A stretch of DNA of 64,000 nt, from positions 1-64,000 of the forward strand of contig MHZT01000005.1 in NCBI GenBank assembly GCA_001828855.1. The letters run 5' to 3'. How positions within the stretch are numbered: position 1 is the stretch's first letter; each line of letters opens with the position of its first letter. The DNA is from Rhodobacterales bacterium RIFCSPHIGHO2_02_FULL_62_130 (GTDB taxonomy: Bacteria; Pseudomonadota; Alphaproteobacteria; Rhodobacterales; Rhodobacteraceae). The position numbers were made by a program, and so were the translations under genes. Below are positions 29,060 through 59,968 of the stretch, in pieces. Under the pieces are notes generated by a model, which was not told the origin of the DNA, did not search any database, and saw nothing but the letters and a program-made list of their open reading frames with translations.

Positions 29060-29680
29060 TTACGCTACCCGTGCTGCGTATTTTTGGATTGCCAAACGGA
29101 AGGGCAACAGTGCCAAAATATCGACCGCAATCTTGACGCCCCAGTCGGCCACACCCAGCGAAACCCACAACGGCACCTCGCGGCCAAAGCCAAGAAGTGG
29201 CACAGGGGCGGTGGCCCAGGAAACATCATTGGCCGGTTCAAGCCAGATCAGCGCAGCCGAAAAGGCCACGGAAAAGAAGATCAGCGTGTCGGCGGTTGAT
29301 CCAAGAAGCGTCGACAGGAACGGTGCGCGCCACCAAGCCGAGCGGCGCAGTTTGTCAAACAGGGTGACGTCCAGCATCTGTCCGATGAAGAAGGCGATGG
29401 CCGATCCAAGCGCAACGCGCCAGGTCACCAAGGGGCCAAACTCGCCCATGATTTTGGTGCCGATGAAAGAGCAGACCAGCCCCACGATCAGGCCGGCAAA
29501 AACCACGCGGCGCGCGGCTTCGACTCCCTGAAAGCGATTGACCAAATCCGACACCAGAAAGGCGAGCGGGTAGGAAAATGCTCCCCAAGTCAGCCATTGG
29601 CCGATGGGGTATTGCACGAGGATATTGGATGCCACGACGATGGTGGCCATGGCAATTGTGCCAAGCAGGATTTTGTTCAT
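29060..29680 (-). CDS. yhhQ: Queuosine precursor transporter (YhhQ/VUT family)
   Basis: 206-residue integral membrane protein with about six spans, of the YhhQ/COG1738 family (SNILVQYPIG, LAFLVSDLVNRFQG, FIGQMLDVTLFDKLR, STADTLIFFSVAF, DWGVKIAVDI). Members import the 7-deazaguanine precursors preQ0/preQ1 used for queuosine in tRNA. The start ATG is seven bases after GGA, a weak Shine-Dalgarno embedded in a pseudoknot-like element that resembles a preQ1-I riboswitch. No queuosine biosynthesis gene is adjacent, consistent with a salvage role. Confidence 0.9.
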   Translation of the reverse strand: MNKILLGTIAMATIVVASNILVQYPIGQWLTWGAFSYPLAFLVSDLVNRFQGVEAARRVVFAGLIVGLVCSFIGTKIMGEFGPLVTWRVALGSAIAFFIGQMLDVTLFDKLRRSAWWRAPFLSTLLGSTADTLIFFSVAFSAALIWLEPANDVSWATAPVPLLGFGREVPLWVSLGVADWGVKIAVDILALLPFRLAIQKYAARVA

Positions 29681-29687
29681 CTTGTGA

Positions 29688-29717
29688 TCCGTTTTTTACA
29701 AGGTCGCGGAGACTTGG
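29688..29717 (-). promoter_or_regulatory. Candidate preQ1-I riboswitch in front of yhhQ
   Basis: On the minus strand: P1 CAAG (29716-29713) pairs with CUUG (29702-29699); P2 UCCG (29710-29707) pairs with CGGA (29691-29688); between them lies a short loop beginning with C29706, and an A-rich L3 (U then six A, 29698-29692). This is the H-type pseudoknot order of preQ1-I, in which P2 3' strand overlaps the Shine-Dalgarno: here CGGA supplies GGA seven bases before the ATG. The known B. subtilis aptamer has the same layout, with UAG-C before and AAAAAACUA after. P1 is only four pairs, weaker than usual. The gene controlled is a queuosine precursor transporter, the expected type of target. Confidence 0.6.
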
Positions 29718-29762
29718 CCCCGGATTGGGGAAACCCGCCTTTAGACCTGTTGGCGGGATGCG

Positions 29763-30656
29763 TCAATCCGGCAGGCGGTACTCGACAATTTCGGTTGCCA
29801 GAAAGCCCATAAAATTGTTGTCGGATACCATGCTGGCGGTCAGTCGGCCCTCTGCGTCGCGCCAGACGGCAACACCCTCAAGGTTGTCATGCACGCCCGG
29901 GGCGGTTTGGAGGAGGACCAAGCCTATGGCTTCGCCCGATGCATTCAGATCAAACCGGCGCAGGCGGCTGGCAAAACCTGCCAATCCGCGAAACTGCCGT
30001 TCCAAGAGATATAGCCGTCCCTCCGGTCCGATATCTGCCCCGACGGGCAAAAAATTCCCGATCCGCGCTATGCGGAACGGGCTGTTCCACTGGCCTTGGC
30101 GAAATTGGAAAAGCGGAAAAGGGCCGTTCTGGGGTGTGTTTTCCGGCACGGTGTAAAGCGTATCGTCGGCCCCGACGGCCAAAGATTCCAGCGCGCTGTT
30201 TTTTGTCATCAGCAAAAATGCGTCTGGGATCGGCAGCTGTTGAGAGGTGCCGCCGAACCGCGCATAGCTTTGCACCCGCGCCGGTCCCTCGAACGACACA
30301 AACATGCGCCCATTTGTACCGATCGCCAAACCTTCGCTGTCGTTCCGTTCCGTCGGGAATACCGCACCGGTCGCGTCGGTCAACGGTTCAAAAGGGGCGG
30401 CGGAAATTCGTGTAATGCGGCCTTCAGCATCGCGCTGAAGGGCGCCGCGGGTCGCATTGCTTCTGTCGGTAATTGCGACGAAGTGGTTTCCGTCCGCCGA
30501 AATCTCAAGCCCTGACATCCCGCCGAAAAGCGGGTCGGCCACTGACCAAGCGTAGGCGCCCAGAAAGCCGGGCGGAGGGGCAGGGCTGGTGCTGCGCTCA
30601 AGTCCCGCAATCAGCACCAAACCTGCCGCTATTCCGAGGCAAGCACGTCGGCACAT
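29763..30656 (-). CDS. Phytase-like esterase family secreted protein
   Basis: 297 residues with an N-terminal hydrophobic signal (CLGIAAGLVLIAGL). The rest matches the 'esterase-like activity of phytase' domain (PF13449): FGGMSGLEISADGNHFVAITDR, NDSEGLAIGTNGRMFVSFEG, LESLAVGADDTLYT and DNLEGVAVWRDAEGR are the beta-propeller blade signatures. The enzymatic activity in this family is poorly proven; phosphoester or ester hydrolysis in the periplasm is likely. Its start lies 28 bp inside the 3' end of mepA, so it is in the same operon. Confidence 0.85.
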   Translation of the reverse strand: MCRRACLGIAAGLVLIAGLERSTSPAPPPGFLGAYAWSVADPLFGGMSGLEISADGNHFVAITDRSNATRGALQRDAEGRITRISAAPFEPLTDATGAVFPTERNDSEGLAIGTNGRMFVSFEGPARVQSYARFGGTSQQLPIPDAFLLMTKNSALESLAVGADDTLYTVPENTPQNGPFPLFQFRQGQWNSPFRIARIGNFLPVGADIGPEGRLYLLERQFRGLAGFASRLRRFDLNASGEAIGLVLLQTAPGVHDNLEGVAVWRDAEGRLTASMVSDNNFMGFLATEIVEYRLPD

Positions 30657-44966: not shown

Positions 44967-47002
44967 TGCGGTCACGCTATGCCTTTGTTTTGGCGGCAAG
45001 CCTTTGGCTTGCCGCCTATGCCCGCGATACGACTGAGGCATGGATCGCCGCGACGGTTCTGCCGCCGCTGATCGTGGAAACGTCGGTCGAAGTGCTGGAT
45101 CGCGATGGCGCCTTGTTGCGCGCCTATACGGTGGCAGACGGGCGCTGGCGATTGGCCGTGGACTTGGCGCAGGTTGATCCCGGCTATGTTTCTGCCCTGT
45201 TAGCCTATGAGGACAAGCGGTTTTACGACCATATCGGCGTTGATCCTTGGGCGTTGCTGCGGGCGGTCGCGCAGGCGGCTTGGAATGGGCAGGTGGTGTC
45301 TGGCGGCTCTACCCTGACAATGCAGGTCGCCCGCTTGTTGGAGGACAGCGGCACGGGGCAAATGGATGGCAAGATACGGCAGATCCGCGTGGCGCTGGCG
45401 CTGGAGCGGCGGCTTCGCAAAGACGAGATTTTGTCGCTTTATCTGCATCTTGCGCCCTATGGTGGCAATCTGGAAGGCATCCGCGCTGCGACGCTTTCCT
45501 ATTTCGGCAAAGAACCGCGACGTCTGACCCCCGCCGAATCCGCCCTGCTGGTGGCAATCCCGCAAAGCCCCGAAAGCCGTCGGCCCGACCGCTCGGTCGC
45601 GCGTGCAACCGATGCGCGAGATCGGGTCTTGGCGCGGGCGGCAGGGGATGGCTTGATTGATGCCGATCAGGCAGCGGCGGCGCGGACAGAGGTTGTCCCA
45701 TCGCTGCGCCGCCCTTTTCCGGCACTTGCCCCGCATATGTCAGATCGGGCTTTGTCCGAGGAGGCCACCCAGCGCCATCAGCTCACCCTGTCGCGGAGCT
45801 TGCAAATCTCGATCGAGAAATTGGCGGCCGAGGTGGTGGAAGGACAGGGCGAGCGGTTGCAGGTTGCCATTGTGGTGGCGGATCACCAATCGGGCGAAGT
45901 GCTGGCCTCGGTTGGCTCGGCAGCCTTTCAGGCCGATGCACGGGCAGGGTTCATGGATATGACGCGGGCGATCCGCAGCCCGGGTTCTACGCTTAAGCCA
46001 CTGGTTTACGGCCTTTCTTTTGATGAAGGTCTGGCCCATCCCGAAACCCTGATCGAAGACCGCCCCACCGATTTCAACGGCTATCAGCCGCAGAATTTTG
46101 ACCGCCACTTCCGTGGCACCATCCGCCTGCGTGAGGCGCTGCAGCAATCCTTGAACATTCCGGTTGTGGCGCTGACCGAGGCTTTGGGTCCATCCAAACT
46201 GTTGGCGGCCTTGGACAAGGCCGGTGTGGGCTATGACTTGCCTGGCGGGCAGCCGGGGCTTGCAATAGCTTTGGGCGGGATCGGGATCAGCCTTGAGGAT
46301 ATGGTCCAACTTTACGCGGCCATCGCAAGGGGTGGTGTTTCATTGCCGCTTATCCACCAGATGCAGGGGCGGCGAGAGGAGGGGCAACGTGTAATCTCGG
46401 CATCGGCGGCATGGCTGGTGGCGGATATTCTGGCGGGCTTGGCACCGCCGCCCGGTGCGCCTGAGAACCGTCTGGCCTATAAAACCGGCACCAGCTATGG
46501 CCACCGCGACGCTTGGGCGATTGGATTTGATGGCAGGCATGTGATCGGCATCTGGATGGGGCGGCCCGATGGCACTCCGGTTCCGGGCGCGTTCGGGGCC
46601 GATCTGGCGGCCCCCGTGCTGTTTCAGGCCTTCGCGCGTCTGAAGCCAGCACTTGACCCGCAGCTCCCTGCTCCGCCTGCGACCCTTCTGGTTTCAAACG
46701 CAGAACTGCCACAGCCGTTGCAGCATTTCCGCTCGCGCAGCGCCGCGTTCGAGGTGGCAAAGGACGCGCCCGCCGTCGCCTTCCCCCCTGATGGGGCCGA
46801 GGTGGAACTTCTGCCCGAAGGCCTGTTGGTGCGGGTGCGGGGCGGCACCGCCCCTTTCACATGGCTGGCTGATGGTGTGCCGGTGGCCGTGTCCTTGGTG
46901 GGACGCGAGACGATGCTGTCCGATCTGGGAAAGGGCTTTGTTACCCTGTCGGTCATTGATGCGACCGGCCTGTCAGCACGCGCTAAGGTTCGCCTGCGCT
47001 AG
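44966..47002 (+). CDS. pbpC: Penicillin-binding protein 1C
   Basis: 678 residues. After an N-terminal hydrophobic anchor (about 5-20), the glycosyltransferase GT51 domain has EDKRFYDHIGVDP with catalytic Glu82, GGSTLTMQ and the RKDEILSLYLH segment. The transpeptidase domain has SxxK Ser341-Lys344 (GSTLKPL), SLN, and KTG at 506-508 (YKTGTSYGHRDAW). The PBP1C-specific C-terminal beta domain (BiPBP_C) lies at about 600-678. The start can be ATG 44966 or the GTG three bases earlier; TGATG overlap with the alpha-2-macroglobulin stop supports coupling. Confidence 0.94.
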   Translation: MRSRYAFVLAASLWLAAYARDTTEAWIAATVLPPLIVETSVEVLDRDGALLRAYTVADGRWRLAVDLAQVDPGYVSALLAYEDKRFYDHIGVDPWALLRAVAQAAWNGQVVSGGSTLTMQVARLLEDSGTGQMDGKIRQIRVALALERRLRKDEILSLYLHLAPYGGNLEGIRAATLSYFGKEPRRLTPAESALLVAIPQSPESRRPDRSVARATDARDRVLARAAGDGLIDADQAAAARTEVVPSLRRPFPALAPHMSDRALSEEATQRHQLTLSRSLQISIEKLAAEVVEGQGERLQVAIVVADHQSGEVLASVGSAAFQADARAGFMDMTRAIRSPGSTLKPLVYGLSFDEGLAHPETLIEDRPTDFNGYQPQNFDRHFRGTIRLREALQQSLNIPVVALTEALGPSKLLAALDKAGVGYDLPGGQPGLAIALGGIGISLEDMVQLYAAIARGGVSLPLIHQMQGRREEGQRVISASAAWLVADILAGLAPPPGAPENRLAYKTGTSYGHRDAWAIGFDGRHVIGIWMGRPDGTPVPGAFGADLAAPVLFQAFARLKPALDPQLPAPPATLLVSNAELPQPLQHFRSRSAAFEVAKDAPAVAFPPDGAEVELLPEGLLVRVRGGTAPFTWLADGVPVAVSLVGRETMLSDLGKGFVTLSVIDATGLSARAKVRLR

Positions 47003-58765: not shown

Positions 58766-59914
58766 TCAAACTTGCGCTGCGATTTCGGCGTGGAAGGCGT
58801 GGGCCAGCCACGGCATCAGGGCCGCCACATCTGCCGTTTCCACAGTGCTGCCGCACCAGATCCGCAGACCGGCTGGGGCATCGCGATACGCGCCGATGTC
58901 ATAGGCAACGCCCGCTTTTTCCAGACGCTTGGCCACGGCCTTGGCAAAAGCCTCGCCGTCCTTGATGCGCGCATCGTTGAACTTCAGGCACACACTGGTG
59001 GTCGAGGCGATTTCCGGCGTTGCCGCCAGATTTTGCAGCCACGGGTTTTCCGCGCAGAAATCCCACACGACCTTGGCATTGGCCGCAGCGCGGTTGACCA
59101 GACCCGAAAGCCCGCCCACCGATTTCGCCCATTTCAGCGACACCAGATAATCCTCAACCGCCAGCATCGACGGCGTGTTGATCGTCTCGCCGACGAAAAT
59201 GCCTTCGATCAGCTTGCCTTTCGAAGTCAGCCGGAAAATCTTGGGCAGTGGCCATGCAGGGGTATAGCTTTCCAGCCGTTCCACGGCGCGGGGCGACAGG
59301 ATCAGCATCCCATGCGCGCCTTCACCGCCCAGAACCTTCTGCCAAGAGAAGGTGGTGACGTCCAACTTGCTCCAGTCCAGATCCATCGCAAAGGCGGCAG
59401 AGGTGGCGTCGCAGATGGTCAGCCCTTGGCGATCTGCCGGAATGGCATCGGCATTGGGCAGGCGGCAGCCCGAGGTGGTGCCGTTCCATGTGAACACAAC
59501 GTCCGAATTGAAATCGACGGTGGCAAGATCAACAATCTGGCCATAGGGGGCGATCTTCACCTTCGCATCCAGCTTAAGCTGTTTCACCACATCGGTGACC
59601 CAGCCTTCACCGAAGGATTCCCACGCCAGCATCTCGACGGGCCGTCCGCCCAAAAGCGACCACATCGCCATCTCGACAGCACCGGTATCAGAACCGGGGA
59701 CGATACCGATGCGGTAATCCGCCGGGACGCCCAAAATCTCACGGGTAAGGTCAATCGCCTCTTTCAGCTTTGCCTTGCCAACAGCGGCACGGTGCGAGCG
59801 GCCCAAGGGCGCATCAGCAAGCATCTCAAGGGAGAAACCGGGAACCTTGGCGCAGGGGCCAGAGGAAAAGCGCGGGTTAGCCGGGCGCGCGGCCGGGGTC
59901 TGCAGATCAGACAT
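58766..59914 (-). CDS. serC: Phosphoserine aminotransferase
   Basis: 382 residues, start at 59914-59912 ([23 protein letters not shown]) after GAAGGATACC. It is the alphaproteobacterial SerC type with [42 protein letters not shown] and PLP lysine Lys193 in [15 protein letters not shown]. It converts 3-phosphohydroxypyruvate and glutamate to phosphoserine and 2-oxoglutarate. Likely transcribed with serA, 79 bp downstream. Its leader carries two hairpins like the alphaproteobacterial serC motif. Confidence 0.96.
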
Positions 59915-59968
59915 GGTATCCTTCCAGATATAAGCCCCCCGTTGGGGAGGGGTGTCCCGCCGATGGGG
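59915..59968 (-). promoter_or_regulatory. Candidate serC leader motif
   Basis: Just before the serC start the minus strand has CCCC-ATCGGC-GGG and then CCCC-TCCCCAAC-GGGG, two small GC-rich hairpins ending 20-25 bases from the ATG. A conserved two-hairpin 'serC' RNA motif is known upstream of serC in alphaproteobacteria; position and order fit. I cannot verify the primary-sequence consensus here. Confidence 0.45.

Follow-up and report, generated by a model that had tools for sequence, protein, structure and literature searches.

A probable class I preQ1 riboswitch variant in the yhhQ leader of Rhodobacteraceae

A conserved element upstream of yhhQ

The window analysed here is a stretch of 64,000 nucleotides (nt), positions 1 to 64,000 of contig MHZT01000005.1 from Rhodobacterales bacterium RIFCSPHIGHO2_02_FULL_62_130 (GCA_001828855.1), and it raises the question of what role is played by the short mRNA leader of yhhQ, a gene on its minus strand (29060–29680). 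An initial annotation had proposed that this leader holds a class I pre-queuosine1 (preQ1) riboswitch, acting as a translational OFF switch on a queuosine precursor transporter. The transporter assignment is borne out, with the product scoring 90.3 bits against TIGR00697 (cut-off 50.95) and 90 bits against Vut_1 (cut-off 27.2); against NF008406, the model of the 7-cyano-7-deazaguanine/7-aminomethyl-7-deazaguanine transporter, it reaches 112.7, below that model's cut-off of 252. Conservation, covariation in helix P1, the positions of the ligand pocket, the gene context and the pattern of salvage versus synthesis genes together support a translational OFF switch of the preQ1-I type, and we conclude that the element is very probably a class I preQ1 riboswitch variant repressing translation of yhhQ, with preQ1 as its presumed ligand and repression as the presumed direction of control.

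The conserved element is 30 nt long (minus strand, 29717–29688; 46.7 bits against the model R1 described below), and the yhhQ ATG begins after a further 7 nt; the interval first assigned to it, 29681–29720, does hold the element and also takes in the 7-nt spacer and three upstream bases. Read 5′ to 3′ on the minus strand, an accessory hairpin (CCCC-AAUCC-GGGG) and C29717 are followed by CAAG, the 5′ strand of P1 (29713–29716, with G29713 as position 5, the pocket floor); U and C, loop L1 (29711–29712, with U6 at 29712 and C7 at 29711); UCCG, the 5′ strand of P2 and the anti-Shine-Dalgarno (29707–29710, its inner CCG nearly invariant and its outer base variable); CGAC, L2 (29703–29706, with A29704 before C29703, the specificity base expected by the published layout); CUUG, the 3′ strand of P1 (29699–29702, with C29702 as position 16); UAAAAAA, L3 (29692–29698, its six adenines at 29697–29692); CGGA, the 3′ strand of P2 (29688–29691, containing a Shine-Dalgarno-like GGA at 29690–29688); and then the 7 nt and AUG. 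This is the H-type pseudoknot order of class I (P1 5′, L1, P2 5′, L2, P1 3′, A-rich L3, P2 3′), and the parts named in the initial annotation, P1 CAAG/CUUG, P2 UCCG/CGGA, six adenines in L3 and a GGA seven bases before the ATG, are all in the minus-strand sequence. In such a switch preQ1 would stack between P1 and P2 and pair with C29703, with U29712 and the last L3 adenine reading its other edge; the bound ligand would stabilise the pseudoknot and so hide the GGA, and translation of the importer would then fall at high preQ1.

The presence of a conserved RNA element before yhhQ is confirmed by comparison with relatives, where a loose pattern matched 70 of 76 loci at first look; we call the family Rhodobacteraceae from its named members (Cypionkella, Pseudorhodobacter, Phaeobacter and others). 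A descriptor composed of published class I features (G5 and U6, AC or UC ahead of C16, a P1 of four pairs, a P2 with three Watson-Crick pairs, and AAA before P2), with loop-length ranges that were chosen after the leaders had been seen, matches 160 of the 222 distinct leaders of yhhQ; among 4440 dinucleotide-shuffled leaders it matches 4. In the window it has two matches, at 29713 and at the unrelated position 45768, where shuffled windows average 0.6. The 222 distinct leaders come from a total of 238; 28 of them lack the anchors used for parsing and one more, L215, was left unparsed, giving 193 parsed leaders, and three of the 28 (L147, L225 and L257) hold variant elements matched by R1. That model was built from an alignment of 35 distinct copies (A1) with P1 as its sole helix, and at an expectation value (E) of 0.05 or below it matches 219 of 244 family genomes, once in each except for five with two or three matches.

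P1 and P2 pairing

Pairing was assessed both in the parsed leaders, which comprise 131 distinct motifs, and in a second alignment, A2. The parse demands no P1 pairing and requires GU, CCG, CC and AAA-CGG, which are therefore not evidence within it. A2 was fitted with R1 and has 96 rows (83 distinct), drawn from 97 chosen sources of which L231 alone was unmatched; the element had already been seen in nearly all of these sources, the low-scoring L128–L148 were favoured, double changes were the reason for including L007, L019 and L028, and A2 leans towards P1 because R1 contains P1. The two sets draw on overlapping leaders, and shared ancestry inflates all of the covariation counts.

In the parse, P1 is fully paired in 126 of 131 distinct motifs (shuffled mean 99.4 and maximum 110 over 10,000 shuffles), and double changes number 16, where shuffles reach 7 at most. 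Among the 193 leaders, 159 have CAAG/CUUG, 14 CGAG/CUUG, ten CAUG/CAUG (spread over nine numbered genera, judged by handles), three GAAG/CUUC, and one each AAAG/CUUU and CGAG/CUCG; those incompletely paired in the parse register are three with CGAG/CUUC, one with AGCG/CUUU, and L236, which becomes CAGG/CCUG after re-registering. In the 83 distinct rows of A2, all P1 cells (100%) are paired, and both sides change at three of the four pairs; P1 and P2 together have 30 cells with both sides changed, where shuffles give 7.1 and slid controls no more than 7, and sliding the partner lowers their pairing from 95.0% to at most 49.4%. A1 has the same trend, more weakly. The G-U wobbles in P1 favour an RNA over a DNA palindrome.

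Covariation had been asked of both helices by the initial annotation; P1 provides it, and P2 does so at its outer pair alone. The three inner P2 pairs are C-G in 83, C-G in 83 and G-C in 81 of the 83 rows (the last with one G-U and one unpaired), and since they are almost invariant they say little on pairing, so that P2 rests on complementarity, the outer pair and the one change from G-C to G-U. The outer pair is U-A in 32 rows, C-G in ten, U-G in seven, and A-U and G-U in one each; in the parsed set it forms in 89 of 131 motifs (shuffled mean 78.6, maximum 89). Leaders with a G at both positions 8 and 33 have a C as the next base in 17 of 17 cases (not deduplicated), and this may make a shifted G-C pair. 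An alternative CUUGU/ACAAG hairpin available in the window was set aside, since leaders do not agree in the letters that follow CGGA.

The ligand pocket and relation to known types

PMC11625349 and PMC10622847 describe a class I layout with G5-C16 as the floor, U6, L3 adenines and, ahead of the P1 3′ strand, a specificity cytosine, whose preceding base is U in type I and A in types II and III; in the Tte type II aptamer a C7-G11-C30 triple forms the ceiling, with C9 and A14 (PMC11625349). When G29713 is numbered 5, the floor pair is present in the window, and U6 in L1, C7, C9, G11, A14 and C16 fall at the published numbers, with C15 (C29703) adjoining the P1 3′ strand on its 5′ side. The initial annotation had assigned ligand reading to the lone C after the P2 5′ strand (C29706), a role that the published layout gives to C29703, and it had taken UCU in place of UUC in L1 as a mark of divergence; this is not odd, as Tte type II itself has C7 (PMC11625349).

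These positions are well kept among relatives. Tte loop lengths are matched in 134 of the 193 parsed leaders, and are accompanied by C7 and A14 in 114. G5 and U6 are present in 96 of 96 A2 rows (which are model-fitted), and G5-C16 in 81 of 83 distinct rows, with G-U in the other two; the specificity column is C in 95 of 96 rows and G in L215, a count that leans towards C given that the model rewards it. Position 7 is C in 137 parsed leaders, G in 33 and U in 23, the dinucleotide before the P1 3′ strand is AC in 163, CC in 29 and GC in one, and the base before GG in the P2 3′ strand is C in 95 of 96 A2 rows and U in one. The CC variant is associated with Loktanella/Yoonia.

The UC that precedes the P1 3′ strand in type I is thus found in none of the parsed leaders, and the AC of type II stands in the window and in 163 of the 193. 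The UU that follows the P1 5′ strand in type III is replaced, position 7 of the window being C, and so is the AAGG under a Watson-Crick P2, with C in place of A and the burial of GG alike. The E. coli yhhQ leader is a type III switch that binds preQ1 with a dissociation constant (KD) of 58 nM (PMC10622847), and reads GGG-UU-CCCU-CAC-CCC...AAAAAGG with the linker GGUUAAUC present. RF00522 gives no match to this leader (L266:9177–9211, plus strand) at E≤10, and the Rfam model thus has a gap here. Our element and the E. coli switch (PDB 8fza) have in common the gene, the H-type pseudoknot, AC before the P1 3′ strand, a pyrimidine-rich loop, an A-rich L3 and a canonical P2 burying the Shine-Dalgarno GG; they differ in that the element has ACGG rather than AAGG and G11-C rather than U11-A28 (a paired exchange), C7 rather than the conserved UU, one extra base in L2 and a P1 of four pairs. 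With Tte type II it shares AC before P1, C7, C9, G11, A14 and C16 at the Tte numbers and the G11-C30 ceiling pair, and with Bsu type II a canonical P2 and AC before P1. Judged by sequence, the pocket appears closest to type II (AC before P1, C7, the G11-C30 ceiling and Tte loop lengths), and the way in which canonical P2 pairs bury the Shine-Dalgarno closest to type III.

A bolder proposal, which we regard as tentative and rather doubtful, is that the element represents a further, fourth type among natural class I preQ1 aptamers, restricted to Rhodobacteraceae, combining a type II pocket with type III-like Shine-Dalgarno burial, and with sub-clades (CC for AC, G for C) that may have shifted to preQ0 or queuine. 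The preQ1-I types were reportedly defined by McCown et al. 2014, and it is possible that these sequences were already included in their list. No publication announcing the element was found in the literature searched, and the available parts of PMC3766115 and PMC9495176 do not describe it. Assignment to class I would mean that a preQ1 riboswitch governs a gene carried by most of the Rhodobacteraceae sampled, would tie queC-lacking genomes to a feedback-controlled importer, and would supply structural studies with natural forms intermediate between types II and III; RF00522, for its part, misses this Rhodobacteraceae lineage as well as the E. coli type III leader.

Distribution

The element appears to be a feature of the family. 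The order-level sample contained this same family only. In the class sample R1 matches 20 of 385 genomes, of which five are family members with strong matches and 15 are others with weak ones (E 0.002–0.05); we take these 15 as chance, as there is no yhhQ at those loci. In the phylum sample it matches 24 of 398, comprising 22 family members and two others with weak matches (E 0.0057 and 0.0072), also taken as chance, and at least five family members in this sample have no R1 match. For 27 of 71 non-family Alphaproteobacteria with a yhhQ match, leaders read by eye contained no such element, with starts placed by homology only.

Queuosine pathway genes

Pathway genes were compared in 35 family genomes, 21 bearing the element and 14 without yhhQ (of the latter, R1 was run on all except G131 and G177). 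All 35 have tgt above cut-off. By contrast, queC is above cut-off in 12 of 35, with 1 of 21 in the element-bearing set versus 11 of 14 in the set without yhhQ; it is full-length and below cut-off in two further element-bearing genomes (G010 and G051), and below cut-off in G343, which lacks yhhQ. QueF-II exceeds its cut-off in 18 of 35 genomes, five of these among the 21 element-bearing genomes, including that of the window, in which tgt scores 498 bits and queF 143.5 bits and no queC is above cut-off. Within 8 kb around its tgt, the family search named only tgt and the neighbouring aroB; queA and queG were not searched for. These counts suggest that absence of queC is common in Rhodobacteraceae, and the pattern would fit bacteria that depend on an importer and control that importer by feedback. 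In the passages of PMC11570991 available to us, 64% of analysed Alphaproteobacteria are queuosine prototrophs, three losses of preQ1 synthesis are named, none of them in Rhodobacteraceae, and tgt, queA and queG are present in the analysed members except Bartonella. One genome, G075, has the element together with queC and queF above cut-off, and so has synthesis and salvage together.

Alternative explanations

Several observations weigh against a class I preQ1 riboswitch. CC stands in place of AC before the P1 3′ strand in the 29 leaders noted above, and L215:112–140 (plus strand) keeps P1 and P2 and has G at the specificity position, which makes it a candidate for a decayed or altered-ligand element. 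In 32 of 83 rows the outer P2 pair does not form. Nested folding gives the leader no advantage over shuffled sequences (z 0.04), and RNAalifold recovers P2 only, without covariation. P1 is seen by neither method; as neither of them models pseudoknots, we weigh both lightly. RF00522, with which the element agrees in architecture and pathway, finds the B. subtilis type II switch and, as the initial annotation had anticipated, does not match the element, either in the window genome or, at E≤10, in the window region and 20 related leaders; because it misses the E. coli leader too, this says little on class membership. R1 in turn scores the E. coli leader at −1.7 bits at best, which is no match, and the two elements are therefore far apart in sequence. 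Lastly, an R1 match is absent from 25 of 244 family genomes, and 12 of the 20 of these that were examined lack yhhQ; among the eight that have it, an element that is recognisable or a variant persists in L148/L161, L154/L172 and L169, those of L164 and L168 seem degenerate, and none is seen in L162, L165 and L174.

We infer both that a ligand is bound and that it is preQ1, and the same fold might instead serve preQ0 or queuine as its main ligand in these salvage-dependent bacteria. The minority pocket changes would agree with this, and with queF and no queC above cut-off in the window genome an import of preQ0 is plausible; however, the pocket positions agree with the ones by which each of the three class I types reads preQ1 (PMC11625349), in E. 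coli the type III switch has a strong preference for preQ1 over preQ0 (PMC10622847), 16 of the 21 element-bearing genomes have no QueF-II above cut-off, so that preQ0 would not be reduced there by QueF-II, and no queuine salvage is predicted in the analysed Alphaproteobacteria except Bartonella (PMC11570991, available passages). We consider a different main ligand unlikely. A ligand-free attenuator or thermometer, in which a Shine-Dalgarno/anti-Shine-Dalgarno pseudoknot or hairpin is conserved for its own sake, would account for the near-invariance of an inner P2 CCG/CGG that includes the Shine-Dalgarno, but it would not call for an unpaired U6 (96 of 96) and C15 (95 of 96) that stay constant while the letters of P1 drift, albeit in an alignment whose model rewards both, nor for the recurrent Tte loop lengths or for a preQ1-pathway transporter as the gene that follows; it seems very improbable.

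More improbable still is a DNA operator, with the inverted repeat CAAG-N10-CTTG as a protein site between promoter and start codon. The repeat is indeed a dyad downstream of a weak promoter-like sequence, but the G-U pairs of the 14 CGAG/CUUG leaders break the DNA dyad and keep the RNA pair, pairing is kept across letter sets as different as CAUG/CAUG, GAAG/CUUC, AAAG/CUUU, CGAG/CUCG and CAGG/CCUG, and P2 links the loop to the Shine-Dalgarno. A preQ1-responsive class I pseudoknot is thus the explanation that we prefer.

Surroundings of the element in the window

The accessory hairpin (29718–29730, minus strand) adjoins the 5′ side of P1 and is weak in the window, with a stem score of 12; a stem in this place scores at least 14 in 98 of 131 distinct leaders and in 20% of mononucleotide shuffles. 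Its sequence varies among relatives, and it is absent from the class I descriptions in the available parts of PMC11625349 and PMC10622847. Further upstream, a relaxed scan for which no null was computed picks out a promoter-like TTGACG, 17 nt, TAAAGG (29738–29766, minus strand), which we grade as weak because a stricter scan of the region finds no promoter. The relaxed pattern occurs upstream in 64 of 131 leaders (again with no null computed), with the −10 commonly 18–27 nt before P1, and the accessory hairpin may therefore be the 5′ end of the yhhQ mRNA. A search for sites resembling an intrinsic terminator found none, and control at the level of transcription is accordingly less likely.

Directly upstream of yhhQ lies a phytase-like esterase gene (PF13449; 29763–30656, minus strand), whose stop codon overlaps the promoter-like TTGACG. 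Elsewhere in the window, a serC leader of the known family RF00517 is present at 59911–59962 on the minus strand (67.8 bits).
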